Shown here: positions 1,652 to 22,007 of the stretch, piece by piece
Layout: every line of letters begins with the position of its first letter
Position numbering within the stretch: position 1 is the first letter of the stretch
IMG/VR virus record: IMGVR_UViG_3300017743_000153
Span: 1-22,073 of that record
Origin: a virus
Reading direction: 5' to 3' (one strand)
DNA length: 22,073 bases
The notes under the pieces: generated by a model
Database searches by the model: none
The model's input: only the letters and a program-made list of their open reading frames with translations
What the model was told of the DNA's origin: nothing
Translations under genes and position numbers: made by a program

Positions 1652-4360
1652 TTACTTTTTGAAGAGATCAATTGCCAAACTACCTGTATCGATATTGGCA
1701 CCATCACTTACTCTTCTTACAAAGAAATCAGCGTGTGTAGTGAATCTACTAACACCTATACTAACAGGAGTTGTTGTAGGTGTATAATCATTCATACTGG
1801 TTTGTATGACATAATCTGTAGCGTTGGAATACGCTGTAGCAAATGTCGCTCTGTATTGACCAGCAGCTATTTGTGAAGCAGTAACTCCAGGAGTTCCAGT
1901 CCATGCTGGTGAACTACCAAGAGAAATCTCACCTACCTTACTATCAGCTGGTTCATAAACTGTTGTTGTAGAACCAGTAATTGGAAGAGCTGAAGCCGGT
2001 GGAGTGAAATTAGATGTATATCTTGCTGATTTAGAAACTCTAATATCATCAACATTACCTTCAAAATTGCCAACATCACCTCCATAACTGTATCTACCAA
2101 TCCTAAAACCGTGACCGGCCACATCATTAATCTGATTATCAATTAATTGATCACTACTAGTGTTGTTAGCTTCACTACCATCAAAATAGAAGTGAATTGA
2201 ACCATTGCTAGGTTCTCTTACAATAGCGATATGATGCCATGCATTATCAGATAAGGTAGTCTTGCCTATCTGTTTTAATGCAAATCCTGTGGTAGCATTT
2301 CCAGCCCCATTAGTTCCAGTATTGGAACTACTTCTATTATGCCAATAGAAGTTGAAAACATTAGTTCCACCACCAAGGTCGTAGTATCCAATTTTCCAGT
2401 TTGCAGCAACACTAATAGATGGATGATAATTTGCAAATAATACACCAGAATCTGTAATGCTTTGGGCTGTTGGAAGTTGAGTACTATCAAAGTAGAACCA
2501 TCCTTCAAGTGTCCAAGCACCTTCAAAAGGATAATATACAGATCCTGAATTATCTTGTTGGAAGGTTAAACCACTATTATTAGTTTGGAATCTTGCAGAT
2601 TTTGTTCCATACTTTACTGGTGATGCGACTACATCAACTTGACCGGCACTCGGGGTTCGTCCATCCTTTAAGTTGGTAACAGCACCAATGTTTGCCTGAT
2701 CGAAATTCATACGAATCATCGTATTATCCCAATCACTATCTGCCTGATTGACAGTAGATGGAGCATCTACAAGGAATAATGCTCTCCAAGTAGTTCCATC
2801 ATAGTAATATGGTTGACCACCAATTTGTTTGACTTGACCAGTGGTTCCTGCTGTACCAACAACTGTTGGATTATTGTGTGATAGTGTTAGTGCAGGTGAA
2901 TCAATTCCATTAGTAGATGAACCTGATCCAACGGATACAGTATATGGAGTTTGTAATTTATTAGAGTTCGTATATACCGCATTACCCATATATGCATGAT
3001 TAGTACATTGATAATGAAGAACTTGCGGAGTAGTATCACTTATTGCAATTTCAGTGTAAGCATTATTAAAGGTTACCCCTGTAGAATATAATGTTGTCCT
3101 GTCTGCTTCAAGATAAAACTTGAGTGGATGAGATCCCGTGTTAGTATGGAGGAATCTATAACTTCTACCTGGTGTGAGTGTAAGGAATGGAGCTTGAACT
3201 CCATTAAGTAGATATCCATTACCACTACCTGAACCATTGTACCTATGTTCTTGGGTCTTAGTAGCAACAGTCACATTAATTGTGACCATTGATCCATTTG
3301 GTTGTTTCCAGAATGGTGCTTGTAGGTAAGCATATCCTGCAATTGATTGATCGACACTTATACCATAAGCAGTCGTTTGTAACCTTATACTATCAGAATG
3401 TTTAAGTGTAACTGGTGCAGCATCAATTTCTATCTCACCAGCACTTCCAACTCTTTCAAATTTAACAATATTTCCACTATTATTATAAATTATTCTTGCA
3501 TCATTGTTAGTACCAAGATTAATTCCATTCTCATCATACATGTACAGTTGACTATTTCCACTGCCTGCTTTGAATGAAACATGTGCATTTACATCAACAT
3601 TACCATTAAAAGTAGAAATACCACTAACTTCTAAGAAATTAGTTCTTATATTATTAGTATTACCAATTCCACTGCCACCTCCGCCACCGCTATAATTAAC
3701 GATATTGAGAGTTGAGATACCAGTAATATTTGCTCCACCACCTACGAATGATGTAGCAGTTAATGCTCCAGTAACTGTGACACCATTAGTAGTAGTTTCA
3801 AGTTTCTTGTTTCCTGCAAAGTGTGCTTCTACACCAGCAGCAGAATTGAATTTCAACCAACTTTGGTTCGCATTACCTTGATCTTGAATATATCCTGATG
3901 ATGCCCTGATATACAAATCACCAACACCAGAATCTACAATGAAACTGTGAAATCCAGTATGATAAATTTCTAAATCATCACCAGTTCCCAACAAAATCTT
4001 ATCAGCATCCTGCAGGTCTAGATTTGCATTAAGAATTACATTATCAGTAAAGGTTGATACTCCATCAACAGTCAGACCGCCACTAAGTGTAGATATTCCA
4101 CTAACTTCAAGAAAATCAGTTCTTAAATTATTAGTATTAGCAATACCAGTGTTGGTAATGGTTACACTACCAGTCGATCCACTTACATTAATGCCAGTTC
4201 CACCTACAACATTAGTAACTGGAACTGCAAGTGTTGTTCCATCACCAATAGCAGTATAAATCTCATTAAAGTTTGAGTTAACTTTAATTGCACCATCGAG
4301 TAAACTATCACCTGTCCCATCATTAGGTGCAGAACCAGTACTTATCCCTAACTTGGCCAT
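1652..4360 (-). CDS. Tail fibre-like structural protein with internal cupredoxin-like and LamG-like domains
   Basis: This 902-aa protein is probably a baseplate-attached fibre or receptor-binding protein. Residues 1-100 are 91% identical by direct count to the start of the neighbouring 703-aa protein. They begin MAKLGI.TGSAPNDGTGD, an N-terminus seen in many phage fibres and probably the virion anchor. The motif FLEVSGIST occurs at about 83-91 and again at 242-250. A KLETTTNGVTVTG beta-repeat and a glycine hinge (224-229) follow. Residues about 372-466 look like a cupredoxin, with H411, C452, H455 and M458. Residues about 545-790 look like a concanavalin A/LamG-type jelly roll, with WTLEGWFYFD, WHHIAIVREP, IHFYFDG and VDDIRVSKSARYT. 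The C-terminal 110 residues are not recognised. The gene has its own late-promoter-like leader and no Shine-Dalgarno. The role as a host-recognition fibre is inferred. Confidence 0.75.
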   Translation of the reverse strand: MAKLGISTGSAPNDGTGDSLLDGAIKVNSNFNEIYTAIGDGTTLAVPVTNVVGGTGINVSGSTGSVTITNTGIANTNNLRTDFLEVSGISTLSGGLTVDGVSTFTDNVILNANLDLQDADKILLGTGDDLEIYHTGFHSFIVDSGVGDLYIRASSGYIQDQGNANQSWLKFNSAAGVEAHFAGNKKLETTTNGVTVTGALTATSFVGGGANITGISTLNIVNYSGGGGGSGIGNTNNIRTNFLEVSGISTFNGNVDVNAHVSFKAGSGNSQLYMYDENGINLGTNNDARIIYNNSGNIVKFERVGSAGEIEIDAAPVTLKHSDSIRLQTTAYGISVDQSIAGYAYLQAPFWKQPNGSMVTINVTVATKTQEHRYNGSGSGNGYLLNGVQAPFLTLTPGRSYRFLHTNTGSHPLKFYLEADRTTLYSTGVTFNNAYTEIAISDTTPQVLHYQCTNHAYMGNAVYTNSNKLQTPYTVSVGSGSSTNGIDSPALTLSHNNPTVVGTAGTTGQVKQIGGQPYYYDGTTWRALFLVDAPSTVNQADSDWDNTMIRMNFDQANIGAVTNLKDGRTPSAGQVDVVASPVKYGTKSARFQTNNSGLTFQQDNSGSVYYPFEGAWTLEGWFYFDSTQLPTAQSITDSGVLFANYHPSISVAANWKIGYYDLGGGTNVFNFYWHNRSSSNTGTNGAGNATTGFALKQIGKTTLSDNAWHHIAIVREPSNGSIHFYFDGSEANNTSSDQLIDNQINDVAGHGFRIGRYSYGGDVGNFEGNVDDIRVSKSARYTSNFTPPASALPITGSTTTVYEPADSKVGEISLGSSPAWTGTPGVTASQIAAGQYRATFATAYSNATDYVIQTSMNDYTPTTTPVSIGVSRFTTHADFFVRRVSDGANIDTGSLAIDLFKK
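1991..2728 (-). other. LamG/concanavalin A-like domain in the 902-aa fibre
   Basis: Residues about 545-790 carry the usual landmarks of a laminin-G-3 type lectin fold. A strand region with KYGTKSARFQ is followed by WTLEGWFYFD, then DNAWHHIAIVREP, SIHFYFDG, a GHGFRIGRYSYGG segment and VDDIRVSKSARYT. Such domains often bind glycans, so receptor or surface-polysaccharide binding is a reasonable inference. The 703-aa paralogue lacks this domain. Confidence 0.7.
2963..3247 (-). other. Cupredoxin-like segment with type 1 copper ligand pattern (902-aa fibre)
   Basis: Residues about 372-466 include LTPGRSYRFLHTNTGSHPLKF, a typical edge-strand plus first-histidine region, then LHYQCTNHAYMGNAVY. The possible ligands are H411, C452, H455 and M458. 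C-x2-H-x2-M matches the ligand loop of amicyanin. The first His is followed by Pro, as in the HPF motifs of multicopper oxidases, instead of the Asn common in small blue-copper proteins. Copper binding is a prediction only. Confidence 0.6.
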
Positions 4361-4393: not shown

Positions 4394-6505
4394 TTATCTA
4401 AGTGTCGGATAGATATAAAGTTTTCCACCCATTGCAGCGTGTGCAGTACACTGATAATAAAGTGTATCAGGAGCATTGAATGGAACCTCAAATTTGAGTG
4501 TTCCATTACTTACATCATTATTAGTAACACCAGTATTATATTGTGTTCCAGTAGAACCATTTGCAGTGCTCTGAATACGGAATGGATGTGCTCCCATCCC
4601 ATTCACGAACTCATAAACTGCACCCCTCGCGAGATATAGATCAGGGTCATTTGTAGTGACTGGAAATCCAATACCAGTGAAGGTATAGTTATTACTACCA
4701 TCAGCACCCAGATCCCACTTTCCAGATACCGCATAAGAGGCATCACCACTGATTGATCCAGCAGCACCAACTGTAATATTATTACTTACAGTTAAACTAC
4801 CAGTAACAGCTGTAGTACCATTAATGTCTACACCATTTGAAGTAGTTGTAAGTCGTTCAATTTGTGCACCCTGACTAGTAGCATAATATAACGAGAGTCC
4901 ACCTGAAGTTGAAGCACCAGTGTTTGTTTTTAATAAAATAGATCCTTGATAACTCTGTATCTCTACATTACCAGCAGCTTTGATCTGGATTTCACCACCG
5001 GTACCAGTATTCGTGAGTAATACATCTTCTGCTCCAGCACGTTGAATACTAAAGGATCTACCCTGCAGTGCAATCGAATCGCTTTTCGACTCTCCTGTGA
5101 TTTTTACACCACTAGTAGTGGTTTCAAGTTTCTTGGAGTTGTCATAATAAAGATCTACAGAACCATTTTCAGTAGCAACTATATAATCCTCAGCCCCTGA
5201 TGCATTTGACCAAGCGTTTGTACCACCTCCTCTGAGAACAATTCCACCAGTGTTACTAATAATTTTGAAACTACTCGTATCTTGATAAATTTCAGAATTA
5301 TGGAACTTTAATCTATCATCACTAGATCCACCACTCAACGCAAGTACAACATTTGCCCCATTTAAATTAATATCACCAGAGAATGTAGAAATACCAGAAA
5401 CACTTAAGGTATCAGTCTCAGTATGACCCGTTACGTCAATACCAGTGTTATTAATAGTAACTCCAGCTCCAACAAATTTATCAGACCAAACTGCTGCCCA
5501 TCTATTGGTGTTTGTACCTAAATTATATGTTGAATCACTAAATGGTGTTATGTGTTTTACGAATGTCTGGCTAGCTCCAAATGTAACATCTACGAGAAGA
5601 TCTGCACCACCATTATACCTATTGTATATTGATATACCACTACTGACATCATATCTAATCGCAGGACTATTTCCACTCGATGGAGAAAATCTAATATCAA
5701 AGGCTGATGAGGAATTTCCTAGTGTAAGGTAACCAGTACCAGTTTCAAGATTAGTGCCATTTATATCTCCATTGACAGTTATACCAGTATTAGTAGTAGT
5801 TAGTTTTGAACTACCTTGATAGAGAAGATTAGAAAATCCAGATGTAACCTCAAGACCAAGATTTGCCGTGGTTTCTGAGGTACCACCATATACATGCAGT
5901 CCATTTTTAGCTATGACGACTAAATCACCAGCACCTCCCCCACCATTATTTTGAGCGTGAGAAATATATGCTTTTTGATTACTAGATCCATAAATTTGAA
6001 ATGGATTATTAGAAGCAGTATCCATTGAGATACCCTTACTAGCACTAAAAGTAATAGTTTGATTAGTGGTAGCACCTCTAGAAGTTACATCAGCAAGAGT
6101 GTCAGATCCTCCTCCTCCTCCTCCGCCACTGTAATTAACAATATTGAGAGTAGAAATACCAGTAATATTTGCTCCACCACCTACGAATTGTGTTGCAGTA
6201 GCGTTGCCAGTTACTGTAAGTCCACCAGACAGGGTAGATATTCCACTAACTTCAAGAAAATCAGTTCTTAAATTATTAGTATTAGCAATACCAGTGTTGG
6301 TAATAGTCACATTACCGGTAGATCCACTTACATTGATACCAGTTCCTGCTGAAACACTAGTAACTGGAACTGCAAGTGTTGTTCCATCACCAATAGCAGT
6401 ATAAATTTCTGTGAAATTTGTATTAACTTTAATGGCACCATCAATTAGACTGTCACCTGTCCCGTCATTAGGCGCAGAACCAGTATTTATCCCTAACTTG
6501 GCCAT
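4394..6505 (-). CDS. Tail fibre-like structural protein with C-terminal cupredoxin-like domain
   Basis: This 703-aa protein is a probable baseplate-attached fibre, paralogous to the 902-aa protein downstream. The first 100 residues are the shared MAKLGI anchor. A GGGANITGIST segment and a seven-glycine run (127-133) follow, much as in the paralogue. The middle (about 140-580) is a low-cysteine beta-repeat shaft with recurring KLTTTNTGITVNG, LSVSGISTFSG and KKLETTTSGVKITG type motifs, as in many marine phage fibres. The last about 100 residues resemble a cupredoxin, with H640, C686, H689 and M692, ending GGKLYIYPTLR. The gene begins 27 nt after the giant gene's stop, and the promoter-like motif overlaps that stop. 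There is no Shine-Dalgarno. The fibre role is inferred from composition and position. Confidence 0.75.
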   Translation of the reverse strand: MAKLGINTGSAPNDGTGDSLIDGAIKVNTNFTEIYTAIGDGTTLAVPVTSVSAGTGINVSGSTGNVTITNTGIANTNNLRTDFLEVSGISTLSGGLTVTGNATATQFVGGGANITGISTLNIVNYSGGGGGGGSDTLADVTSRGATTNQTITFSASKGISMDTASNNPFQIYGSSNQKAYISHAQNNGGGGAGDLVVIAKNGLHVYGGTSETTANLGLEVTSGFSNLLYQGSSKLTTTNTGITVNGDINGTNLETGTGYLTLGNSSSAFDIRFSPSSGNSPAIRYDVSSGISIYNRYNGGADLLVDVTFGASQTFVKHITPFSDSTYNLGTNTNRWAAVWSDKFVGAGVTINNTGIDVTGHTETDTLSVSGISTFSGDINLNGANVVLALSGGSSDDRLKFHNSEIYQDTSSFKIISNTGGIVLRGGGTNAWSNASGAEDYIVATENGSVDLYYDNSKKLETTTSGVKITGESKSDSIALQGRSFSIQRAGAEDVLLTNTGTGGEIQIKAAGNVEIQSYQGSILLKTNTGASTSGGLSLYYATSQGAQIERLTTTSNGVDINGTTAVTGSLTVSNNITVGAAGSISGDASYAVSGKWDLGADGSNNYTFTGIGFPVTTNDPDLYLARGAVYEFVNGMGAHPFRIQSTANGSTGTQYNTGVTNNDVSNGTLKFEVPFNAPDTLYYQCTAHAAMGGKLYIYPTLR
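4397..4708 (-). other. Cupredoxin-like C-terminal domain with type 1 copper ligand pattern (703-aa fibre)
   Basis: Residues about 600-703 contain DLYLARGAVYEFVNGMGAHPF, then a 40-residue stretch and TLYYQCTAHAAMGGKLYIYP. Candidate ligands are H640, C686, H689 and M692. C-T-x-H-x-x-M is the arrangement seen in amicyanin (CTPHPFM), and pseudoazurin has the similar CTPHYxM. The domain sits at the extreme C-terminus, so it could be exposed at the fibre tip. Confidence 0.65.
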
Positions 6506-6534
6506 AGTAGTTCTATTTGGTAAAAGTATTTATT
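6206..6534 (-). repeat. Duplicated leader and fibre N-terminus, copy 2
   Basis: This is the partner of 4061-4389. The non-coding part (6506-6534) is identical to 4361-4389 base for base, and the 100 following codons differ at nine residues. The leader overlaps the stop codon of the giant gene by two bases. Confidence 0.9.
6527..6534 (-). promoter_or_regulatory. Late-promoter-like motif upstream of the 703-aa fibre gene, overlapping the giant gene stop
   Basis: AATAAATA on the minus strand lies 21 nt before the ATG. Its first two bases are shared with the TAA stop (6533-6535) of the giant gene. The placement and the exact duplication before the next gene support a regulatory role. The assignment rests on similarity to T4 late promoters. 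Confidence 0.55.
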
Positions 6535-9500
6535 ATGATGTATAATCCCTATACTTCAAAGGTTCAAACCTAGACAGAAGACCAGAAGAAGAAATTCCAA
6601 TGATTCCATTGTTGCCATAGAAACTAAATTCTTGTGGTGATGTTCTTCCTTCGAATTGAATCTTACCCCAACTGAATCTACCCATATTAGAAGCAGAACT
6701 AATTCCACCTGCGTATACAGTAAAGGTTCTAGTATCAAGGGTATATGAAGAAGAATCAAAAGTAATCAAAGAAGAAGAGAATGACTCGGTTGAGATATTA
6801 CCAACATTAACAAATACCCTTCTTACAGTGGTATTACCAACACCAATAACATTTTTCTCAAGAGTGTAAGTACTCTTAACTTGATATACACAATCAATGA
6901 ATGATGTAGTGATTCCAATAGGGGTTCCATCAATTCTATTAGAATCGATAGTTTCAGTTGTGTCAACATTTGAGTTGAATACTGAGAAGTAATCACCAGT
7001 TCCAATACCACTGACTGTGATACCAGTTCCAACATATTCACTATCTCTCATAAACGAATCAGTAGGAATATAGAAATCAAGGATTATTTCATTTCCACCA
7101 GATACAGTTGATAAACCAAATCCAACCAAAATACCATAATCACCACTATAATCGTCAACACCAATCTCTTCTCTTACGATAGTTGGCTCAGAAATGAGAA
7201 CTAAAGGAGGATTAGTGTCCGTATAACCAGTTCCAGGGTTGGTAATAGTTACAACACCAACACTACCACTAGAGAGTGACAATGTGCCAGTAGCTCTTGT
7301 TCCATCAGAAGGATTAGCAATACTCAGTGTTGGAGCTATAGTGTATCCAGAACCAACATTGGTTACATTGATAGAGACAGTTCCAAGTCCAGAAACAATA
7401 GCCGTAGCAGATGCTGAAACTGAATTATCCTGAGACAAAATCTTAATCTTTTTCTGGAAATCTCTACTATTAGACTCACTTTGAGTATCAAAGAGAGGTC
7501 TTACACTATCAACATAGGCAATTGTTGAAACCAAACTAATTGGTTGAATTAGGTAGGAAGTTGGATAAATCAGAGGTTCATATTCGACCCTATCCTTACC
7601 TATTTCCTGTCCATTGATGACCTTATCAATCTGTTGCTTACACCATATTAGAGGTCTACTGAGAGTTGTATCATTGGTGACACCGGGACCATTGTAGGTA
7701 GTGGTTTGAACACTATCAATAGTGTTAATACCGACAACAGTTCTCACATCTTCATTCAACCCAGAACCCTGTCCTTGTTTTGGATTGTTGTTTATGTCTA
7801 ATGTGTCACCAGTTTTAACTGTTTCCAGAACATCAGTGAATACAACATCAACATCTCCACTACCCTTATAAAATAGTACCTTTGAACTATCACCAGGTTC
7901 TGGTGGTTCAACGAACTGAACTGTACCACCTCCAGTAAAGTTATATGCGACTTCTGGTTGTTGAAGAACATCGTTGATGAAGATCAATAGTGTTTTATCA
8001 ACTTCAATAGGTGATCCAGGTGCTGATTGAATTGAAAGTGCAACATCATTAACTGATAATCTAAAACTTCTACTTAAACCATCAAACTGAGAATCAAAGT
8101 TATCAAGAACCTGAAGTTGTCCAATAGAGAAACCATTAAAATCATCTTGATAGATTTCATCAATAGTAATCTGGAACTCACTGAAGGTTCCACTAGTAGG
8201 AATACCGGTCGCTCCACCAACATTAACAGTTAAGATCTCACCATTACCATAGGCGAAACCTTCTTGTTTCAGTTGGTAATCAATAACACTACCACCAGAT
8301 CCAACTTGAATATCAATAGTTGCAGATTGACCGATACCCTGTATAGAACTTCCACTGTAGACCAGAGGAATGTTTGTATATGACGCGGGATCATCGATTA
8401 CAAGTTTAGGTAAGTTAGTTGAGGTATAACCAGATCCAGGATTGGTAATTGTAACACTAGTGACATTACCACCAGATACAGTAGCTGTACCAATAGTTTG
8501 AATATTAGGAGTTCCAATACTAGAAGTTTGAACACCAACAAATACTGTTCCTAATCCTGATCTATAACCAGAACCAGAGTTACCAATACTTACAGAGGTA
8601 ATTGTTCCAGCTACAGATACAGTAACTGTACCACCAGCTCCAATCAAAGGTTGATATCCACCACCTTCTGTGGATCCAATAGAAACAATAAAACCACCAA
8701 TTGGAAGATTACTTCTATTAGGATCGTAACCATAAGCTGCTCCACTCTCTTCAAACCTGATTGAAGAAATGCCAGAAACAGTTTCAGAAAGATCATAGGT
8801 TCCTTGATTTGCTTGAACACCCAGTGGTTCTTGGAAGATATTGTTTATCAGAATAATGGCATTATCTGTTGAGAATCCTGTGGTATTCTGACCTCCACTG
8901 GTAAGTCTAAACTCACTTCTAAGACCTGTGAAGTTATTTGATACATCATCAAATACGTGGTTAGCGAAATATGTCTCTCTATCGGTGTTGACAGGAGCAG
9001 TTCTCATAAAGGTTCTACCTTGGAAAGTAGAATGTGTGGTTAAACCAGTATAATCTCTCTCAGAAGGTGCAGATGATGTGGTAGAGAGTGGAATAGCTCC
9101 ATATGGTGGAGAGATAAAGTTCAGAGTACTTCCGACAATATTATAAGTACCACTCATTTTAGTGATAGTAGATCCAATACCATGAGGTTCTAAGTTTGTT
9201 CCAAGTTGACCTCTCTGGACAGTCAGATTTTCGGCACCACCAACACCGACAGAGATAACACGCATCACCTCATCATTAATCTTAACTAAATCAGCTGCAG
9301 CAATAGATGTTATACCAGTGGTTCCGAGTATAGAATCAAATATAATATTGCCATTAAGAGATGTAGTAATCTGAGTTTCAGATAAAGGGGCCTGAATCAT
9401 ATTATCAACAGCGATTAGAGCTTTAGAGTTCTGTTTCTTAGCAGTGATATTATGAGAGGTTCCAATACCGACTGAGGTAAATTGTAATACCTCTGGATTT

Positions 9501-12500
9501 AATCTTAGTGCCTTTTCTGCACTTTCTGCAAATCTGACACTACCATCTCCAATCTTAACAACAAATAAATCTTTAGGAAGTTTATTGGTAACACCAATAC
9601 CAGTCACATTAGTTGCCGCAATTCCAATAGCCTGTTCTGTTCCATTACCAGCATAAGAGTAAGTAACATTTTCGCCAGTTACAAAGAAATGTTCTTTGAG
9701 GAATAAAGTATTATTATCAAAATCAAATATTGTTGAGGTATTTCCAGCAAATTGTCTCTCGAAAATTGGAAGACCATCATGTTTGAGATCAAATGCAGTT
9801 CTCAGATCAAGTTTAGTACCACTATAAAGACCTCTATCTGATTTAATATCAACGTTGTTTAGATTAAAATTAGTTGGAGCACTCACGTCATCATCATAAA
9901 GTTTCTGCTCAATACCAAATGTTCTGACTTGAACATCTGTGCTTGCATTGGGTGTGTAAGTTAAGTTTCTATACTTACCAGTTGTTGTAAATCCAATCTG
10001 ACCAATACTATTACCAGTATAGACGTTTGCAAACTCTACAAAACTATGATTCGATTCAGAAGCGATAACACAAACTTCAAACATCTCATACTGAGAGTTT
10101 GTTGTATCCTTAACAGATACAACATAATAACCAGTTGAGTATGGTTCTTCAAACTGAAGGATTGTATTAGCTGATGGGGATCCAGAAGATGCGATATTCT
10201 TAAATCCAGAGTTTAATCTAGATTCTTGGAATGTTAATGAAGAGATACCACTTGCAGAATCAGATATTCTTACAACAGAACAATTAGTTGTAACCGCTGA
10301 ACCAACATTTGGTGTATATTCAAGAATAAAGTTACCACCACCGTCAATTCTGGATCCAAAAGTACCAAATCCAGTAGATGAGTATGAACCAGGTTTGGTT
10401 TGCATCTGACCATAATCCACCATATGAACATCAGTTCCATCATGGATCAGGTTAAGCTCATTAAATGCATATTCTCCTTTATCATCTTCCTGAAGAACAA
10501 GAACCTTCATCGCTCTGTCGTTTGCTGCCGTAGTATCCACAATTTGAGTAGTTACTCCATCAGGAACAGTAGTTCTAGTAGATTGCAGAGCGACACTATT
10601 ACCAAGTTGAGTGTTACCAATAGAGGTTATATTGTCCTTGATACTGATAGAAATTGTGGATGTATCATATATGTTGTTCGCAAACTTTACAGGATGGAAC
10701 TGAAGATTCCAACCATCAGCAGTTGAGAAATAATCAAAGTATCCAAGTTCTGGATAAGTTTCTAGTGTTGCATATTCTTGCATATATCCAACACTTTCAC
10801 TTTGAATCAGTGAAACAATAGAGAGTTGCCTCTCATCTGTAAAGATTCTATCCCTTACAAATGTGAATATTTTATTGTAGATATCATTAAACTCAAATGC
10901 ATCAATATCACTATACTTAGTGGGTCTTTCATTACTGAAGAACTCACCACTGAAGTCATCAATATCAAGAACTCTGTTACCAACTGATTGGAAGTAATCT
11001 GAAAGAATTCTATTCTCAAAGAAAATTTCATCAGAAGACAGAACACCATTTATAGTATTATTGCTCTCTGTTACATAATCAAAATCATAGAAACAGTAGA
11101 CACTTGCTCTACCAACAATATCGGTAGTAGTTTCAACATCAGAATCAAAAGGTTGTACAATCGCCAACGGTTGATCTTCTATACTGATGACTTGAAGATC
11201 AGAGAACTCCTTATATCCAGAAGTATGGTTGAGTGCAGATACTGGATCTTCCCAGGTATCATAAGGAACTCTAGATTTGATAGAATATGAGAATGTTTGA
11301 TAATACTCATTATTGGGGATTCTTTGTAGAGAATCATTCAAGAAACCTGTGTTCTTCTGCCAACCATAAGTTATAGTTGCACCAGCACCGGTAGTAATCT
11401 CGGCATCAAAATCAATTTTAGTTCGAATGACAGCTTGAGTATCAGATGATAGACCTCTTACAATTTGTCCAACTTCATACTCTTTAGAAGTATCAACTTT
11501 AAGGATTTCAGTAACTGGATTCCAAGATTCAACTCTACCAGTTTGTTTTCCTTCATATAGAATTATTTCATTTTTAAAGAAATCATTTGTTGTAAGAGTG
11601 GTATTGAAGATTGGAAAGTGGTCAACAGGAATAACTCTACCAGCTGAATTTGATAAATCTACACTACCAGGAACATCACTATCACTCAGATATTCTTTAA
11701 GACTATAATCAATATATGCTCCGCCGCCACCAATCTTGGAGTCTAAATCAGTTATACTAAAGAACTGGTAACTATAGTTTTCAGAGTTATATCCTTTAGC
11801 TGTGGAATTAACACCGACATTCAAATTTTCAACAAAAATCTTACTACCAATATTGTACGGGAATGCACTAGCGTCACTAAATGTACTGTTCAAATAAAGT
11901 CTGACAGTCTTAGTTGATGAGGTGTATGTTAAAGAAGCAATACCAATACCATTTGTATTATCAATAGGAATGATTTCTGGTGTTACATTAAACATTCCAG
12001 TAGAGTTTTGGAGAATAGTAACTTGATTATCCCCAAGACTGTAAGTAAGATCTAAATCTTCAACAACCTCTCTTGTAAATCCATCAAGAACAACCAAGCT
12101 TGGTGATCTCAGATAATTTCTACCACCAGAACTAATACCAATAGACTCAAATGATGTTAGAGATTCTAATTCAAGAATTTCAGGTGGATTAGCAATAGGT
12201 CTTAGAGTCTCATCAGTTGGATAGTCAAATCCAATATTCTGTGAATTAAAAGTTACTCTTTCAATCTTACCAATAGAAGTGCTTTGTGGTTTAAGAATAC
12301 AACCACTACCGTGAGATGTAGTTACCCTTTTGATACTAGGAATACTATCATAGTTACTACCATTATCTAACATCGAAATACGACTGATTGGACCAAGAGC
12401 CGTAGATGATGTGGTTTCATATGTGGTGACTGAGTTCTCAATATTATATGTTGAAACATCAGGTTCTAGAGAAACATTATAACTGAAGGTAGTCGTTCCA

Positions 12501-15500
12501 ATACCACTGAGTGTATGGACACCATCATATCTGGTTTTTTCTACACTGATTTCCTGATGTGAATTTACATCAGTGTCAATAAAGATTTCTTTTTTAACAT
12601 TAGTGATGATATCATTATTAATTGGAACAAACTTATACCATAAGTTTGTTGGAACTTCATCAGATACCAATAGAGTTAGATTTGCATCTGAATCGATACC
12701 AGGTTGCCCAGAAGTTGTAACTTCAAAAGTAGTTTTGGTTTTAGATGTGTCATACACATTGGTATACTCACTATCACTATACAGTCTTAACTCAAAAGCA
12801 GAATAACGAACACCACTGACAACAAAGGAAAGTGATGGATTGGAAAGATCAAATTTGAGTCTGTTGTTCCTCTTTACATACAATGGTGGATTAATCTTGA
12901 AAAGAGTACCATTACCAGATGAAACAATATCAATAACTTTTGGTCTATCTTTCGATAGTTGGAACTTCTCTTTTATAAGTTGAATAGAGTTTGTATCATA
13001 TGGGTAGACGTAGTATAACTGATCGTCATCTAAACCATTGATAGATGAAGAACCTTCCCTATAAAGAACTTTATCACCTTTAACAAAATCATGACCTATT
13101 ATAGTCGCAGTGTTTTTGACAGTATCGGTAGCAGTAATACTCTTAGGATCAAATAAGATTCTTCTAGAAGAATCATCATAAGTAACACTCACTGTTTTAG
13201 TATCAGTTGGTTTGACAGAAATGTATACAGTATCAACAACTGAAAGACCGTGTGTTCCAGAAGTTGCAACATTGACTGTAGTTCTAGAGATTCTACCAGT
13301 CAATACATCGTCCTTATCTGTAAGGAAACTATGGTAGTCATTAGTGGGAACAGATGTGAAGTAAAGAAGTCCCGAAGTTGTTCCAACTCCAACAAATTGT
13401 GCTTCAGTTCCCATACCAATCTTATTGGTGGAAAGACCAATAAAATCTCTACTTATAGGAGCTGTGTAATAAAAATTATATGTGTCTAAGTTCTTGAAGG
13501 TAGGAGTGATACCATTCCAAACACCAATAGCAGTTCCACCCTGTCTATTGTAGTAAAGTCTATCATTTACACTCAAACCATGATTTGGGAGATATATTTG
13601 TTTGGTAGGAACAAACATCTGGGTAACACCCACACCAGGGTTGGAGAAGGTTATGGTAGAACCAACACCAACAGTGCCAACACCTACAACTTCTTGTGGG
13701 TAGAAGTAATATTCCTTATTGATTTTAAGAGCACTGGTTGTTTTCAGAGCACCAACGTTAATACGGAACTTGCGAGGATCCTCAAATAGAATTGTACTGT
13801 TGGTATGCGCCAAACCACAGGAGATGCCATCATATTCTCTTCTAACACGAATTCTTCTTGATCTGTCATCAATATTCAGAACTTTTATATTCTCTGTTCC
13901 AATACCAAGGATATCATTCTCACGAATGGTTGGATAGTTTAGATCACCGGACACATAGAAGTAAGTGGTAAGACCTGTAACACTTGTAGAACCGACTCCA
14001 AGAGTTAATACAAAGTTATCTGTTCTAATACCAAGTCTGGTATTTGTAACTCCAGAGTAACCACTGAAAGTTGTAGATAGTCCAGAGATAGTTACTATAT
14101 CAGTGTTATTAAATGGAATAGACTGAGTAGAGAAACCAATAAATTGATTCAAATTCTGGATATTTCCAAACTCAATATTATCTAAACCTGTGGTCTCAAA
14201 GTTAATGTAATTTACATCAACACCAGCTACTCTCTCTACACGACCTTGTGCGTCAGTTCCACTAGTTCCTTCATTGTTAATCAGAATACGGTCATTGACT
14301 TTGTAGAAATTACCTCCAGTAGTAATACCAATACTCTCAATAGATCCTTTAGATATACTAAGAATATCTAGTGATTGATTTTTTTCTTTATCAGAGTTAA
14401 ACACATAATCATAACCACTATTGTCATCATTAGTATGATATGCAATCGTGTTTCTAAACCACTCACCATTCTCCAGGTTGTAATCACTTTGATTACTCAA
14501 TACACCGAAGTTAGCGGTATTTGGTTTAGAATAGAATGTATTTCCAATGAAGTAGGGGAATGTAGGTCTTCTATAGTTTTTAAAAGGACCAGTAGAATCA
14601 ACACTAAAAGTATTCAGAGTTGAGAAATAACAATATCTACCATTTGGATAATCAGGTGTAACACAGAAACGACCATTATGAATATCAAGGTCACCTCTAT
14701 CCGTGAAGATATAATCTTCAATAAAATATCCGAGGGGGAACAATGATGTTGGTGGTCTATTAGTAGGATTGGTTCTTAGTTCATACCCAGAAATCATCTG
14801 AGATATATTACCACCCTGTGGATCAGTAAATCCATAAGGACCATAAATGGGATTACCATCATACGCCCAACCAAGAATAGGTGAGTGATAAGAACTTGTT
14901 TTCTCTATACCACCAGCTAGTGTAAGATCAGAGATACCATACTGAGTTTCATCACTGCCAGAGATAACATAAGTGTTAGATCTCAAAGGTCTTGGTGCAT
15001 AGAGGTGACAGTACTCAAGCGAGTTGTCATCAATACTCTCACTCACAAAACCATCATCAACACCAATATTATCAAAGTCTCTTTCAAAGAGGTTGATATT
15101 CCAGTTTCTGATTACAGCTTCAGTTTCGCCATACTTACCCGCAGGTTCTACTTGAATATTGGTCGATCCACTAATATAATCACTACCACCTCTCATAATC
15201 TTAACAGAAGTGATTACACCATTCTCAATGATTGGTGTAAGTTTTGCAAATCTACCCTCACCTGTAACAATAAGATTTGGAGAAGAATTATATCCAGATC
15301 CACCATCATTTACAATGATATCAACAATTTTTGAATTACTTACAATAGGTGTTAGTTGTGCATCTTTACCACTGTTGAATGCGATATTTGGCTGTCTATT
15401 GAAGTTAATGATTTCTGATGACCCATAAGCCACACCATTATTTGTTAGATCAACAGATTGAATTGATCCTCTGAAAAGAGGTTGAACTTTGCACTGGAAG

Positions 15501-18500
15501 TCTTGGCCTGTGACCGTATTGACACCAATAATGCCGTCAACAGTAACCTCAATGGGAAGATAGTTAAAACTACCATTACCAATAGTAGAGATATCAACTA
15601 ATATATTTCTATCATAAAAATACTTATTATCAGTCGCACCAGTTCCTACCAAAGATAATGAGAAGTTGTCATCATCTACCTTATTAACATAGTAATTCTC
15701 TGTAGTAGAAAGTCCGACAATACCACTAGTTGTTGTGGAGTACTTAATAATCTCACCAGAACTGTAACCGTGGTTGGGAATATTAAAACGATTACTTGCT
15801 GTGTTGATTCCAATTACTGGGATCTTTCTTTGATTATTTTTATAACCTTTACCAGGATTTATAATATAGATATCTGATACAATACTTTTATGGTCAACTG
15901 CAGTAATAGCCTGGAAACCTGTTCCGAAATCAACAATATCAACGGTATTGATTCCAACTCTTGCGTTGTCCTCTGAAGTATGAAGTTTGATAGTAGAAGT
16001 ATCTACCAGTTCAACATAATAGAATGTATTGGTTGAAAGACCTGCGATTGGATTGCCATCTTTGGCATCATAGAAAACCTTATCAGCAAGATTAAGTTTA
16101 TGGAATGTTGAGAAACCAATTAGATTGGCTTCAGTATTAATTCCGATATTAATTGTTGTTGCAGAGAGTCTTGAGTTAAGTTCTGAGTTAAAGTTGAGTG
16201 AATGAACGATACTCGTCATGTTCACTCTAGCAATAGCCTCTTCTGTGGGATTACCTCCAGTGATAGTTACTGTGGGAACATTCAGATAGTCAAAACCACG
16301 GTCAATTAGGTTTAGACCTACTAGATCTCCTTCGATTGATACAGTCCCTTCTGCACCACTACCATAGTCATCAACGATGCTCAATACAGGAGGATTGATG
16401 ATATCATATCCCTCACCAGGATTAGTGATTTCAAGAGATCTGAGATCACCATACTTTAAACCTTCGCCAGATTTATAATTAAGAATCTCAACACCATTAA
16501 TCAAAATACCACTATAACCAGGTTCAGTTAGATAGTTACCAGATTTGTTGTCAGGTGTGAGAACTTCTCTTACAATATTCTGTGGAGAAAGTTTCTTATT
16601 ATAGAAATCATAATAGATGAACTCATTATTTGATACAGTTCCGAGTAAGGTTACAAATTTCTCAGAAAAGATATCAGATCTAGATCTTGAAAGTTTGATA
16701 CTTGTAGAATTAATTCTCTTCACATAATAAACATTAGCTTCTATATTCTCAAATTTACTCTCTACTTCAGTTGTAACTGTGATTCCATCAGGGGCAATTG
16801 TTGTTGATTTAATTACACCTGGTTTGTAGAAGATGGCATCACCATTTAAAAAACCATGATCTTGATTTGTAGTGAGAACAAGAGTTTCAAGGTCAGCAGA
16901 AGATCCAGAAAAAGTGATCTTCTTATCATAAGGATCAGTAAAAATATTTGAGTAGTTAGGAAGTGAATTGGATGCAACTACTACATCACCATCAAACTTC
17001 TGATATACATTTTGAATATTAGCAACAAAGTTATTCAGAGTAGGATATTTGCCAGAGTTTCCTTTAAGGAGTTGATTCTCGACTTTGATATATGAAATAC
17101 TACCAACATTTGCTGCCAGTTTTGCAAGAAAAGTGTTAGCAGATGAAGATCTGATTACAATTCCAGGAAGTTGTAATCCACTATTACTTCTTAGTGTAAT
17201 CTGATATCCAGGTCTTAGGAAGTGACTATCAAGTAGAGTGATAAAATATGACTTCTCCAGTTCATCAACTAGTTCAATGTCCTCAATATTCCATTCTGTT
17301 TTAATATTGGAATACCAGTTCTGAGATCTTTCATCTCCTCTCTCAATACCAAGAGTTTGAATATTGATAGTATCACCTTCACTATAGAAGTATGAATCTT
17401 GTTTTAGTTTGAATTCTTTAAGAGTAGAAGTAATACGAACCTGAATTTGATTACTAGTATCAAATCCAACATATGCATATGAATAATCATCTAAACGAAT
17501 ATCTTCTTTTGATGTAAAAGTATCATCAACTCCATAAACATTGAAGAACTGATTAACACTCTTACCAGTATATGCAATCGAAACTATATCCCCTACATTA
17601 TCCTTGATGATTAACTTACCAGTATCTGGAAAACCAATAGTTGAATCAACATCAAGAATAGTTGAACCAATGCTTACATTGTTCAGAAGTTTTGTTTTAG
17701 GATTAACTTTGAACTCGCCAAAGATAGAACCACTAACACTAATGTCTCTAGCATATCCAGAGTCAATACTTATTTGATAATACTGTTTGTCACCATAGAT
17801 AATTGGTTTAACATCAGATACAGAACCTCTAGAGTTTGTAGAGTCCTGGAAGAGAGTAAGATTCTTGAGTTTTAATGGATCACCTAAAACTTGTTCTACA
17901 ACAAAGTCTTTTTCTACTTTGTAGTCTGCATTAGAAGGTCTAAACAGAAACTCACTTGGTTTGATAACTTCTACTTCTTCACCATACAGAGCTCTGAAGA
18001 GAATCTTAAATGATTGATCTGTTCCTTTTGATTTGTAAAAACTATCTACATTGTATAAGAAATTTCTCTGATCTAAATCGGAGAAAAACTGTCTATCATT
18101 GAAACCAGGTGCAATCTGATTCTTTAATTTCCTAAAGAACTCTTGGAGGAAAATAACATTCAGATTTTGGATTACTGAATTATCTGTATGTTCTGAAGCT
18201 TCTGTTTGATTAAACGTCAGTTGATCTGGTTGGTTACCAGAAACATATGTTGTAATACCACTGAATCCTCTGATACAATTGATAAAGGAGTTATTACTAA
18301 TCGATTCGTAGTGAATAATTTCTTGGTCAATCTTGATAAGACCATTAGTCTCAGGAAAACCTTCAGTAAAGTTTGTGAGAGATGATGTAGGGATTGTTGT
18401 GGCAGTATAATCCAGTGCACCATTCAGTTGAGTAGAAGTCTTAAGGTTGAATAACTCATCAACCTTAACATACTTGTCAATATTTTGAATCAAATCAAGA

Positions 18501-18631
18501 GTACCACCTTGATACTCTTGTGACTTATAGTATTGCTTTATGAATTCTGGAAGAAGAGGAAAGTCTTCCAAAACATACCTAGGAAATTGACTCTCAACAA
18601 TATCCTGGAACTGAACTCTATCTACTGCCAT
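6533..18631 (-). CDS. Giant gp7-like baseplate wedge/tail structural protein with YHYH domain
   Basis: This uninterrupted 4032-aa protein fills the gp7 position between gp6 and the fibre/gp8 genes. Its first 230 residues resemble a segment near the C-terminus of T4 gp7: a helical start (FPLLPEFIKQYYKSQEY, 24-40), then FYKSKGTDQSFK and LFRALYGEEVEV (198-222), where T4 has a similar FYSTKG...LFKVLYNEEVEIE. The rest is a mosaic of repeats: EIIHYxS/RGFSG-type motifs (about 97-125, 1563-1615, 3114-3160), HG-xx-GD-x-V-x-Y repeats (about 585-1893), GxGY repeats (about 730-3815), a YHYH domain (about 1200-1370), three tandem beta modules (2585-2910), and three INDxxQxP motifs (about 3077, 3263, 3544). 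It begins 9 nt after the gp6 stop and has no Shine-Dalgarno. T4 gp7 is about 1032 aa. The wedge role is inferred from position and the N-terminal match. Confidence 0.78.
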   Translation of the reverse strand: MAVDRVQFQDIVESQFPRYVLEDFPLLPEFIKQYYKSQEYQGGTLDLIQNIDKYVKVDELFNLKTSTQLNGALDYTATTIPTSSLTNFTEGFPETNGLIKIDQEIIHYESISNNSFINCIRGFSGITTYVSGNQPDQLTFNQTEASEHTDNSVIQNLNVIFLQEFFRKLKNQIAPGFNDRQFFSDLDQRNFLYNVDSFYKSKGTDQSFKILFRALYGEEVEVIKPSEFLFRPSNADYKVEKDFVVEQVLGDPLKLKNLTLFQDSTNSRGSVSDVKPIIYGDKQYYQISIDSGYARDISVSGSIFGEFKVNPKTKLLNNVSIGSTILDVDSTIGFPDTGKLIIKDNVGDIVSIAYTGKSVNQFFNVYGVDDTFTSKEDIRLDDYSYAYVGFDTSNQIQVRITSTLKEFKLKQDSYFYSEGDTINIQTLGIERGDERSQNWYSNIKTEWNIEDIELVDELEKSYFITLLDSHFLRPGYQITLRSNSGLQLPGIVIRSSSANTFLAKLAANVGSISYIKVENQLLKGNSGKYPTLNNFVANIQNVYQKFDGDVVVASNSLPNYSNIFTDPYDKKITFSGSSADLETLVLTTNQDHGFLNGDAIFYKPGVIKSTTIAPDGITVTTEVESKFENIEANVYYVKRINSTSIKLSRSRSDIFSEKFVTLLGTVSNNEFIYYDFYNKKLSPQNIVREVLTPDNKSGNYLTEPGYSGILINGVEILNYKSGEGLKYGDLRSLEITNPGEGYDIINPPVLSIVDDYGSGAEGTVSIEGDLVGLNLIDRGFDYLNVPTVTITGGNPTEEAIARVNMTSIVHSLNFNSELNSRLSATTINIGINTEANLIGFSTFHKLNLADKVFYDAKDGNPIAGLSTNTFYYVELVDTSTIKLHTSEDNARVGINTVDIVDFGTGFQAITAVDHKSIVSDIYIINPGKGYKNNQRKIPVIGINTASNRFNIPNHGYSSGEIIKYSTTTSGIVGLSTTENYYVNKVDDDNFSLSLVGTGATDNKYFYDRNILVDISTIGNGSFNYLPIEVTVDGIIGVNTVTGQDFQCKVQPLFRGSIQSVDLTNNGVAYGSSEIINFNRQPNIAFNSGKDAQLTPIVSNSKIVDIIVNDGGSGYNSSPNLIVTGEGRFAKLTPIIENGVITSVKIMRGGSDYISGSTNIQVEPAGKYGETEAVIRNWNINLFERDFDNIGVDDGFVSESIDDNSLEYCHLYAPRPLRSNTYVISGSDETQYGISDLTLAGGIEKTSSYHSPILGWAYDGNPIYGPYGFTDPQGGNISQMISGYELRTNPTNRPPTSLFPLGYFIEDYIFTDRGDLDIHNGRFCVTPDYPNGRYCYFSTLNTFSVDSTGPFKNYRRPTFPYFIGNTFYSKPNTANFGVLSNQSDYNLENGEWFRNTIAYHTNDDNSGYDYVFNSDKEKNQSLDILSISKGSIESIGITTGGNFYKVNDRILINNEGTSGTDAQGRVERVAGVDVNYINFETTGLDNIEFGNIQNLNQFIGFSTQSIPFNNTDIVTISGLSTTFSGYSGVTNTRLGIRTDNFVLTLGVGSTSVTGLTTYFYVSGDLNYPTIRENDILGIGTENIKVLNIDDRSRRIRVRREYDGISCGLAHTNSTILFEDPRKFRINVGALKTTSALKINKEYYFYPQEVVGVGTVGVGSTITFSNPGVGVTQMFVPTKQIYLPNHGLSVNDRLYYNRQGGTAIGVWNGITPTFKNLDTYNFYYTAPISRDFIGLSTNKIGMGTEAQFVGVGTTSGLLYFTSVPTNDYHSFLTDKDDVLTGRISRTTVNVATSGTHGLSVVDTVYISVKPTDTKTVSVTYDDSSRRILFDPKSITATDTVKNTATIIGHDFVKGDKVLYREGSSSINGLDDDQLYYVYPYDTNSIQLIKEKFQLSKDRPKVIDIVSSGNGTLFKINPPLYVKRNNRLKFDLSNPSLSFVVSGVRYSAFELRLYSDSEYTNVYDTSKTKTTFEVTTSGQPGIDSDANLTLLVSDEVPTNLWYKFVPINNDIITNVKKEIFIDTDVNSHQEISVEKTRYDGVHTLSGIGTTTFSYNVSLEPDVSTYNIENSVTTYETTSSTALGPISRISMLDNGSNYDSIPSIKRVTTSHGSGCILKPQSTSIGKIERVTFNSQNIGFDYPTDETLRPIANPPEILELESLTSFESIGISSGGRNYLRSPSLVVLDGFTREVVEDLDLTYSLGDNQVTILQNSTGMFNVTPEIIPIDNTNGIGIASLTYTSSTKTVRLYLNSTFSDASAFPYNIGSKIFVENLNVGVNSTAKGYNSENYSYQFFSITDLDSKIGGGGAYIDYSLKEYLSDSDVPGSVDLSNSAGRVIPVDHFPIFNTTLTTNDFFKNEIILYEGKQTGRVESWNPVTEILKVDTSKEYEVGQIVRGLSSDTQAVIRTKIDFDAEITTGAGATITYGWQKNTGFLNDSLQRIPNNEYYQTFSYSIKSRVPYDTWEDPVSALNHTSGYKEFSDLQVISIEDQPLAIVQPFDSDVETTTDIVGRASVYCFYDFDYVTESNNTINGVLSSDEIFFENRILSDYFQSVGNRVLDIDDFSGEFFSNERPTKYSDIDAFEFNDIYNKIFTFVRDRIFTDERQLSIVSLIQSESVGYMQEYATLETYPELGYFDYFSTADGWNLQFHPVKFANNIYDTSTISISIKDNITSIGNTQLGNSVALQSTRTTVPDGVTTQIVDTTAANDRAMKVLVLQEDDKGEYAFNELNLIHDGTDVHMVDYGQMQTKPGSYSSTGFGTFGSRIDGGGNFILEYTPNVGSAVTTNCSVVRISDSASGISSLTFQESRLNSGFKNIASSGSPSANTILQFEEPYSTGYYVVSVKDTTNSQYEMFEVCVIASESNHSFVEFANVYTGNSIGQIGFTTTGKYRNLTYTPNASTDVQVRTFGIEQKLYDDDVSAPTNFNLNNVDIKSDRGLYSGTKLDLRTAFDLKHDGLPIFERQFAGNTSTIFDFDNNTLFLKEHFFVTGENVTYSYAGNGTEQAIGIAATNVTGIGVTNKLPKDLFVVKIGDGSVRFAESAEKALRLNPEVLQFTSVGIGTSHNITAKKQNSKALIAVDNMIQAPLSETQITTSLNGNIIFDSILGTTGITSIAAADLVKINDEVMRVISVGVGGAENLTVQRGQLGTNLEPHGIGSTITKMSGTYNIVGSTLNFISPPYGAIPLSTTSSAPSERDYTGLTTHSTFQGRTFMRTAPVNTDRETYFANHVFDDVSNNFTGLRSEFRLTSGGQNTTGFSTDNAIILINNIFQEPLGVQANQGTYDLSETVSGISSIRFEESGAAYGYDPNRSNLPIGGFIVSIGSTEGGGYQPLIGAGGTVTVSVAGTITSVSIGNSGSGYRSGLGTVFVGVQTSSIGTPNIQTIGTATVSGGNVTSVTITNPGSGYTSTNLPKLVIDDPASYTNIPLVYSGSSIQGIGQSATIDIQVGSGGSVIDYQLKQEGFAYGNGEILTVNVGGATGIPTSGTFSEFQITIDEIYQDDFNGFSIGQLQVLDNFDSQFDGLSRSFRLSVNDVALSIQSAPGSPIEVDKTLLIFINDVLQQPEVAYNFTGGGTVQFVEPPEPGDSSKVLFYKGSGDVDVVFTDVLETVKTGDTLDINNNPKQGQGSGLNEDVRTVVGINTIDSVQTTTYNGPGVTNDTTLSRPLIWCKQQIDKVINGQEIGKDRVEYEPLIYPTSYLIQPISLVSTIAYVDSVRPLFDTQSESNSRDFQKKIKILSQDNSVSASATAIVSGLGTVSINVTNVGSGYTIAPTLSIANPSDGTRATGTLSLSSGSVGVVTITNPGTGYTDTNPPLVLISEPTIVREEIGVDDYSGDYGILVGFGLSTVSGGNEIILDFYIPTDSFMRDSEYVGTGITVSGIGTGDYFSVFNSNVDTTETIDSNRIDGTPIGITTSFIDCVYQVKSTYTLEKNVIGVGNTTVRRVFVNVGNISTESFSSSLITFDSSSYTLDTRTFTVYAGGISSASNMGRFSWGKIQFEGRTSPQEFSFYGNNGIIGISSSGLLSRFEPLKYRDYTS
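7185..7415 (-). repeat. GxGY beta-repeat pair in the giant protein (C-terminal cluster)
   Basis: Residues about 3739-3815 contain two consecutive units, VTNVGSGYTIAPTLSI and ITNPGTGYTDTNPPLVLI, separated by a Gly/Ser/Thr-rich strand. They follow the pattern hydrophobic-T-N-x-G-x-G-Y-x4-P-x-hydrophobic. Similar units occur elsewhere in this protein and in gp8. Confidence 0.7.
8388..8635 (-). repeat. GxGY beta-repeat pair in the giant protein (middle C-terminal cluster)
   Basis: Residues about 3332-3414 contain ITSVSIGNSGSGY and VTSVTITNPGSGYTSTNLPKL, the two most regular copies in the protein. Each is introduced by a 'G-x-V/I-T-S-V' strand. A weaker copy, LKQEGFAYGNGEILTV, follows at about 3452-3467. 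Confidence 0.7.
9895..10880 (-). repeat. Three tandem divergent beta modules in the giant protein
   Basis: Residues about 2585-2665, 2703-2785 and 2832-2910 share one pattern. Each has a hydrophobic strand plus acidic turn (FTFVRDRIFTDERQL, VLVLQEDDKGEYAF, VVSVKDTTNSQYEM), then a V-x-h-I strand, an aromatic-rich strand ending in YA, YG or FA (MQEYATLET, HMVDYGQMQT, FVEFANVYT), and a late F-x-P or Y-T-P turn. This looks like a repeated beta-sandwich domain. The alignment was made by eye. Confidence 0.55.
14520..15020 (-). other. YHYH domain inside the giant protein
   Basis: Residues about 1200-1370 carry the signature of the YHYH family: SSYHSPILGWAYDGNPIYG with Y1248 and H1249, then GPYGFTDPQGG, DIHNGRFCVTPDYP with H1318, and GRYCYFSTL. 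The family is found in marine bacteria and phage structural proteins. Its biochemical function is not established to my knowledge. Here it is embedded among beta repeats. Confidence 0.8.
16258..16440 (-). repeat. GxGY beta-repeat pair in the giant protein (N-terminal cluster)
   Basis: Residues about 730-791 contain ITNPGEGYDIINPPVLSI and LIDRGFDYLNVPTVTI. They fit the same strand pattern as the C-terminal clusters, so the repeat type spans almost the whole protein. Confidence 0.65.
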
Positions 18632-21208: not shown

Positions 21209-21351
21209 ACCTGTTCAGAACCACAAGTACAGATATGATCAGGGTCAGAACAATCAGTTGTTTCAAAGAGTCCATCTGTATTCACCTTTTTCATTTGTCG
21301 AGGATTTTTCTCATCATTCGCAATCTCCCTTAGGAATTCCTGGTTGCTCAT
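21190..21351 (-). CDS. Small 53-aa protein of unknown function, overlapping the upstream gene
   Basis: An ATG at 21351-21349 opens 53 codons ending in TAG at 21192-21190. It overlaps the last 38 nt of the 228-aa gene in another frame. AAGGAG is 7 nt upstream of the ATG, the best ribosome-binding site seen in the window, and it decides this start over the internal Met20. The protein is acidic, starts MSNQEFLREIANDEKNPRQM, and has a C-terminal cluster C34, H39, C41, C43 (C-x4-H-x-C-x-C), which might bind a metal. No signal peptide or membrane segment is visible. I do not recognise the family. Confidence 0.75.
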   Translation of the reverse strand: MSNQEFLREIANDEKNPRQMKKVNTDGLFETTDCSDPDHICTCGSEQVTLTED

Positions 21352-22000: not shown

Positions 22001-22007
22001 ACGCAAT

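Follow-up and report, generated by a model that had tools for sequence, protein, structure and literature searches.

Cupredoxins have long been known, and the type 1 copper sites that they carry are electron-transfer sites. In phage T4, the gp9/10 proteins join the fibers to the baseplate, and cyanophages rank among the most numerous viruses in the ocean. The presence of iron in phage fibers is known. A study of fiber tips describes metal in the tip of the T4 fiber, and it contains the proposal that iron in tail fibers serves as a lure (PMC11705849). In the open-license literature that we searched, judged by titles and the beginnings of abstracts, no description of copper or of a cupredoxin in phage fibers was found. 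In this report, we describe two cupredoxin-like domains in adjoining baseplate fiber genes of a marine T4-like phage.

Results

Two gp9/10-like Fiber Proteins in a Cyanophage-Related Genome

The window, by which we mean the whole stretch of DNA that was analyzed, is a virus record of 22,073 bases from a T4-like phage related to the cyanophages. Each of the 20 named records that resemble it at the DNA level comes from a Synechococcus phage, a Prochlorococcus phage, or a marine single-cell phage. The genes for gp25, gp6, a 4032-residue baseplate-wedge protein, two gp9/10-like fiber proteins, and gp8 are found on the minus strand. The 4032-residue protein is designated gp7-like from its position and from the label "baseplate wedge initiator" carried by the RB11-B gene in that place. 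The features under discussion are the following.

4394–6505, minus strand: 703-residue gp9/10-like baseplate fiber protein (ORF, Pfam, PHROG)
4397–4738, minus strand: cupredoxin-like domain 1, residues 590–703 (about 114 residues) of the 703-residue protein (AF2, Foldseek, hhalign)
4586–4588, minus strand: codon of H640, the first His ligand of domain 1
4430–4450, minus strand: C-T-A-H-A-A-M ligand loop of domain 1 (C686, H689, and M692)
1652–4360, minus strand: second gp9/10-like fiber protein, 902 residues, adjoining gene (Pfam, PHROG)
2945–3304, minus strand: cupredoxin-like domain 2, residues 353–472 of the 902-residue protein (H411, C452, H455, and M458)
2987–3007, minus strand: C-T-N-H-A-Y-M ligand loop of domain 2

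Both fiber proteins were identified as T4 gp9/10-like by matches to PF07880 above the cutoff, by baseplate profiles, and by the neighboring gp25, gp6, and gp8. The 703-residue protein matches PF07880 with E 2.2e-7 (31.6 bits, cutoff 25) and phrog_677, "baseplate wedge tail fiber protein connector", with E 2e-46. It consists of a T4 gp9/10 N-terminal domain (residues 6–57), a Gly/Ser-rich middle, and the C-terminal cupredoxin domain. The 902-residue protein matches PF07880 with E 9.4e-9 and also matches phrog_16570, phrog_30742, and phrog_677. Its N-terminal domain resembles that of the 703-residue protein and is followed by the internal cupredoxin domain and a weak laminin-G-like region (Laminin_G_2, E 0.032, under the cutoff of the model).

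Two other genes of the window were noted in passing. The 4032-residue baseplate protein (6533–18631, minus strand) contains a YHYH domain at residues 1245–1340 (PF14240, E 1.1e-24). A 230-residue protein (21314–22006, minus strand) matches phrog_3704, "ferredoxin", with E 8.2e-116; the similar stretch is PurM in several named records, and Pfam gave nothing above the cutoff.

Ligand Residues of the Two Domains

The initial annotation had placed a blue-copper motif made up of H640, C686, H689, and M692 in the 703-residue protein, and these residues and their numbering are correct. The codons for C686, H689, and M692 occupy 4448–4450, 4439–4441, and 4430–4432 of the minus strand, respectively. 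The domain is C-terminal as had been proposed, and the extent given for it (4397–4708, the last 100 residues) was slightly short of the approximately 4397–4738 (residues 590–703) now assigned. The second copy, in the adjoining 902-residue protein, had been overlooked; it came to light when domain 1 was searched against the window (E 4.3e-10). Domains of the two types are 24–32% identical to one another.

The CTAHAAM loop is the sole C-x2-H-x2-M sequence in the 703-residue protein, and C686 is its sole cysteine. The single cysteine of the 902-residue protein is likewise the ligand C452. From the composition of the two proteins (1 Cys, 7 His, and 4 Met in 703 residues; 1 Cys, 18 His, and 7 Met in 902 residues), the chance expectation of a C-x2-H-x2-M motif is about 6e-5 and 1.5e-4, respectively. 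A loop with this spacing is also present in Copper-bind proteins that were fetched for comparison (e.g., L150). As judged from sequence, the conserved His-Cys-His set with an axial Met, in that order, constitutes a putative type 1 copper site.

Predicted Structures

Domain 1 was modeled with a 50-row alignment made up of the two domains of the window and 48 from viral contigs, and the AlphaFold2 model has a mean pLDDT of 94.4. The model of domain 2, from a 35-row alignment, has a mean pLDDT of 91.8. When domain 1 was compared with the PDB using Foldseek, 22 of the 22 matches at E ≤ 0.001 were cupredoxin-fold copper proteins, including rusticyanin, Cu nitrite reductase, amicyanin, plastocyanin, laccases, Fet3p, and ascorbate oxidase. 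With VIA-align, the best match for domain 1 was the N-terminal domain of the Cu nitrite reductase from Hyphomicrobium (Z 10.8, rmsd 2.5 over 95 residues). For domain 2, the best match had a Z of 9.2 (2dv6, rmsd 4.8 over 96 residues), and the next had a Z of 9.1 (rmsd 2.8 over 94 residues). A Greek-key β-sandwich of the cupredoxin type is thus the fold of both domains, as predicted rather than solved. A Z near 8 may reflect no more than a common arrangement of strands, and the profile evidence therefore matters.

Six proteins from Marseillevirus and Pithovirus records (LCMAC and LCPAC) in BFVD share the fold of the domain, with E values from 5e-7 to 2e-5. These proteins are named "beta-sandwich protein" or are uncharacterized.

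Sequence Homology to the Copper-bind Family

Single-sequence searches are too weak for an assignment to a family, and the profile–profile and fold comparisons are needed for this reason. Domain 1 fell short of the PF00127 Copper-bind cutoff (14.4 bits vs 21.2; Pfam E 0.053), and it scored 16.2 bits against the amicyanin model, far under the cutoff of 110.2. The relatives L121 and L120 scored 17.9 and 18 bits against Copper-bind, and the place on contig L121 was rated by another tool as over the Copper-bind cutoff (21.2 "with its neighbours in the frame"). Among the 50 members of the alignment, 21 matched the NCBIfam amicyanin model, the most of any model (best E 4.5e-4); a plant At5g54830-like domain was matched by 19 (best E 3.6e-4), halocyanin by 18, and Copper-bind by 17 (best E 2.5e-4). 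Against the sequences of the PDB, a phmmer search with the single sequence returned only Cu nitrite reductase (E 0.6). The profile returned six matches, of which the best copper protein was Cu nitrite reductase (E 0.0078) and one was no copper protein (cerato-platanin-like, E 0.45).

For the profile–profile comparison, 30 segments from bacterial genomes that match Pfam Copper-bind were aligned. Using hhalign, the 50-row domain alignment matched this set with a probability of 96.8 and an E of 2.2e-10, and H640, C686, H689, and M692 were placed on the known copper ligands. The corresponding E for domain 2 was 1.3e-9. Thirty column shuffles gave a best E of 0.028 and a probability of at most 1.7, and the reversed alignment gave an E of 0.15 with a segment set that included a misread segment (L139). 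The match persisted when the four ligand columns were masked (E 3.5e-4, probability 37) and when everything from just before the ligand loop was removed (E 1e-4, probability 58). A bridging protein from a Bacteroidetes bin scores 33.5 bits against Pfam Copper-bind (cutoff 21.2) and matches the phage profile with E 1.5e-7. On the evidence of hhalign with its controls and of this bridging sequence, the domains are homologous to a recognized cupredoxin family. The cupredoxin reading offered in the initial annotation is therefore backed by this profile alignment on the Copper-bind ligands and by the fold predicted for residues 590–703. The two lines of evidence are in agreement on a single site at which the four side chains would meet.

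The four residues might instead have come together by chance in an unrelated, β-rich fiber domain. Fiber proteins are indeed rich in β-strands, and middling structural Z-scores are common. The motif, however, is found in both proteins and in most relatives despite the very low expectation from composition, the similarity to Copper-bind outlasts the masking of the ligands, and copper proteins account for all of the PDB matches from Foldseek at E ≤ 0.001. A chance origin is contradicted by the Foldseek, hhalign, and ligand-conservation results, and we consider it extremely improbable.

Conservation and Loss of the Ligands

The four ligand positions were examined in 122 domains, drawn from two viral-locus sets and the window, and were found to be conserved in 117 (first His), 116 (Cys), 115 (second His), and 114 (Met) of these. 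A larger set contained 161 distinct domains at E ≤ 0.001 from viral contigs, five named phages, and the window, from which two that were cut off at locus ends were excluded. Of the remaining 159 domains, 153 have HCHM, 2 have HCHL, with Leu in place of Met, and 4 are degenerate; the degenerate copies of L070 and L072, which belong to the 122-domain set, are outside this one. The counts from viral contigs are partly biased, in that some of the search patterns contained the Cys and the His. A fairer sample is provided by 24 named records picked from tblastn matches to domain 1 or domain 2. In these records, 32 of the 37 domain matches have all four ligands, and the most divergent of the full-length domains are about 33% identical to domain 1. 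The five matches that do not have the ligand loop are from Syn19, S-RIM2, P-SSM4, syn9, and Escherichia phage tiwna. The first four of these (E 4e-4 to 0.15) are second matches in a neighboring fiber family and may be degenerate copies. The match in tiwna is 64 residues long (E 2.3e-4) and is without the Cys loop.

The ligands tend to be lost together. Three domains had lost at least three of the ligands, and 10,000 permutations, in which the domains were treated as independent, gave at most one. Loss of several ligands together would be expected of a metal site. The loci L049, L070, L074, and L229, which contain degenerate copies, also hold an intact copy, as is partly expected because most of these loci were fetched through one. 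The loss of the C/H/M positions in close homologues had been named in the initial annotation as grounds for abandoning its reading; among the close relatives examined, nearly all retain the four positions, and some copies are degenerate. Three copies are present in one phage locus, L074 (869–1873, 3971–4312, and 5625–7277). One of these is intact, and the ligand losses in the other two have the look of decay in surplus copies.

The degenerate copies bear on whether the fold is used with copper at all. The domain could be a β-sandwich module for docking or receptor binding, whose site is empty in life or occupied by zinc. Degenerate copies that keep the signature of the fold without the ligands are consistent with this possibility, as is the assembly of phage parts in a reducing, copper-poor cytoplasm with very little free copper. 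On the other hand, the four ligands are present in 32 of the 37 matches from named records and are lost together rather than singly, and a conserved axial Met is difficult to reconcile with a zinc site. We regard use of the fold without copper as rather unlikely, though it deserves to be kept in mind.

Distribution of the Domain

At E ≤ 1e-5, the domain is matched by 325 phage records, of which 250 are from Synechococcus phages, 50 from cyanophages, 19 from Prochlorococcus phages, and 6 from others. By comparison, 373 Synechococcus, 61 cyanophage, and 24 Prochlorococcus records contain the gp8 of the window, and the two sets are not nested. Since these gp8 counts exceed those of the domain, the domain is common and not universal. 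Searches of whole records from 22 named carriers gave 1 to 4 copies each. Five cyanomyoviruses were picked from the gp8 list, and four of these matched the profile: the ligands are intact in S-SCSM2R, P-RSM4, and Syn1, and S-CREM2 has a degenerate copy only. No domain was found in ACG-2014f at E ≤ 0.001, nor in a T4-like Klebsiella phage by the profile search. Plasmids gave no match to the domain. Two Autographiviridae cyanophages, P-GSP1 and P-SCSP2, also carry the domain, as do a Pelagibacter phage and Methylophilales phages.

The domain is C-terminal in 10 of 13 gp9/10-like ORFs. Of 13 such ORFs whose domain is intact, 11 have the ligand as their sole cysteine. A copy is found near the N-terminus in P-SSM2, P-GSP1, P-SCSP2, and S-SCSM1. 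The fiber terminus proposed in the initial annotation is thus appropriate for the 703-residue protein, where the domain is C-terminal, and not for the internal copy of the 902-residue protein or the copies near the N-terminus in these other phages, so that a location at the fiber tip is not general. The S-SCSM1 protein that contains the domain is called "virion protein" in its GenBank record. The portions available to us of the paper on S-SCSM1 report 45 virion proteins by mass spectrometry, and the domain protein was not seen named there (PMC9602691). The presence of the domain in virions rests on this S-SCSM1 relative.

Domains of this type are also found under bacterial titles. The contigs L121 and L122 have such titles and a gene order that, read by eye, is phage-like. 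On L122, which is in a gammaproteobacterial bin, a subtilase (5578–7989) contains an inserted cupredoxin-like domain (E 2.3e-17 against the 50-row profile); a heme oxygenase gene (8020–8553) adjoins that of the subtilase. Collagen-like proteins of a Bacteroidetes bin carry the domain, and a Prochlorococcus bin has it, with all four ligands, in a surface-type protein that is rich in repeats (L125, 3–3173). In a sample from the phylum of Prochlorococcus, 1 of 194 genomes matches at E ≤ 1e-5, and it is the Prochlorococcus bin itself; in the sample for the Bacteroidetes bin, 3 of 99 match at the same threshold, namely, that bin and two others. A recent gain from common host genes is not supported by these frequencies.

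This distribution bears on a further possibility, in which copper on the fiber reacts with, or is recognized by, the host surface, thereby aiding adsorption or triggering the baseplate. Variants of this proposal include electron transfer and a copper-based counterpart of the iron "Trojan horse". The electron-transfer chemistry of type 1 sites is in keeping with it, as is the location of the domain on gp9/10-like proteins, the fiber–baseplate joints of T4. The lure proposed for iron in tail fibers offers a parallel (PMC11705849). The domain is also found, however, in proteins for which a role of this kind is not apparent, namely, a subtilase-like phage protein and bacterial proteins of the surface type, and the hosts of the carriers belong to two phyla (Synechococcus and Prochlorococcus; Pelagibacter and Methylophilales). 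A redox or copper-delivery function appears to us quite doubtful.

Discussion

Proposed Role of the Putative Copper Sites

The computations give a predicted cupredoxin fold, homology to Copper-bind proteins, an alignment of the ligands with known copper ligands, and retention of these ligands amid sequence divergence. We think it reasonably probable that the domain in both fiber genes is a true cupredoxin with a complete type 1 ligand set, that it binds copper, and that it serves as a metal-locked, structural module. Each site would bind one copper ion, as suggested by the fold and the ligands. Because the cytoplasm is copper-poor and reducing, the domain probably contains little or no copper on leaving the cell; the metal would then be taken up from the lysate or from seawater, and this place of loading is a guess. 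The bound metal would lock the loop that closes the β-sandwich, and the baseplate fibers may thereby gain a rigid knob or linker that contains no disulfide. The most likely use would be structural, as a metal-stabilized module that docks to another part of the fiber or to the host surface. We infer this metal-locked role from the compact and often terminal domain, from the metal of the T4 tip, and from the single cysteine, which allows no internal disulfide (11 of 13 ORFs).

A broader proposal is that many ocean T4-like cyanophages and some of their relatives that infect other marine bacteria carry type 1 copper proteins in the virion, often more than one site per genome, and use it at host contact. 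This we consider unlikely as a whole; the copper could possibly serve as a redox trigger, as a lure, or as a switch that arms the fiber after release into copper-bearing seawater.

If the baseplate fibers do hold type 1 copper, virions would carry redox-capable metal sites of a kind for which we found no precedent among descriptions of phage tails. The particles could then be part of the organic copper pool of the ocean, beside the role proposed for them with iron, and copper levels could affect the lifetime or the attachment of virions.

Comparison with Known Systems

The cupredoxins with a C-x2-H-x2-M loop, such as amicyanin and halocyanin (PF00127), are similar to the phage domains in predicted fold, in the order and kind of the ligands, and in the spacing of the loop. 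They differ in that the phage domain is part of a large fiber protein and has a longer gap between the first His and the Cys. This gap is 46 residues in domain 1 and 39 residues in amicyanin, and the amicyanin spacing claimed in the initial annotation accordingly holds for the loop and not for the distance from the first His. The best structural matches are to the N-terminal domain of Cu nitrite reductase (2dv6 and 6tfo) and to rusticyanin (Z 10.8 and 9.8; Foldseek E 3.1e-5 for rusticyanin 1gy2). Identity in the VIA-align alignments is 17–19%, and the three-domain nitrite reductase and rusticyanin are an enzyme and a soluble electron carrier rather than fibers.

Among phage families, PHROG 677 and PHROG 30742 (tail fiber protein) contain the domain and are matched directly by the domains of the window (E 5.6e-38 and 1.8e-43, respectively); their descriptions as listed mention neither copper nor cupredoxin. 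The HxH fiber tips of T4 gp37 and of Alteromonas phage R22Y likewise have a metal as a structural or adsorption element of a phage fiber. The metal in those tips is iron, predicted in the case of R22Y, and it is held in octahedral HxH sites of trimeric fibers (PMC11705849), whereas the phage domains described here present a putative type 1 copper site within a cupredoxin fold.
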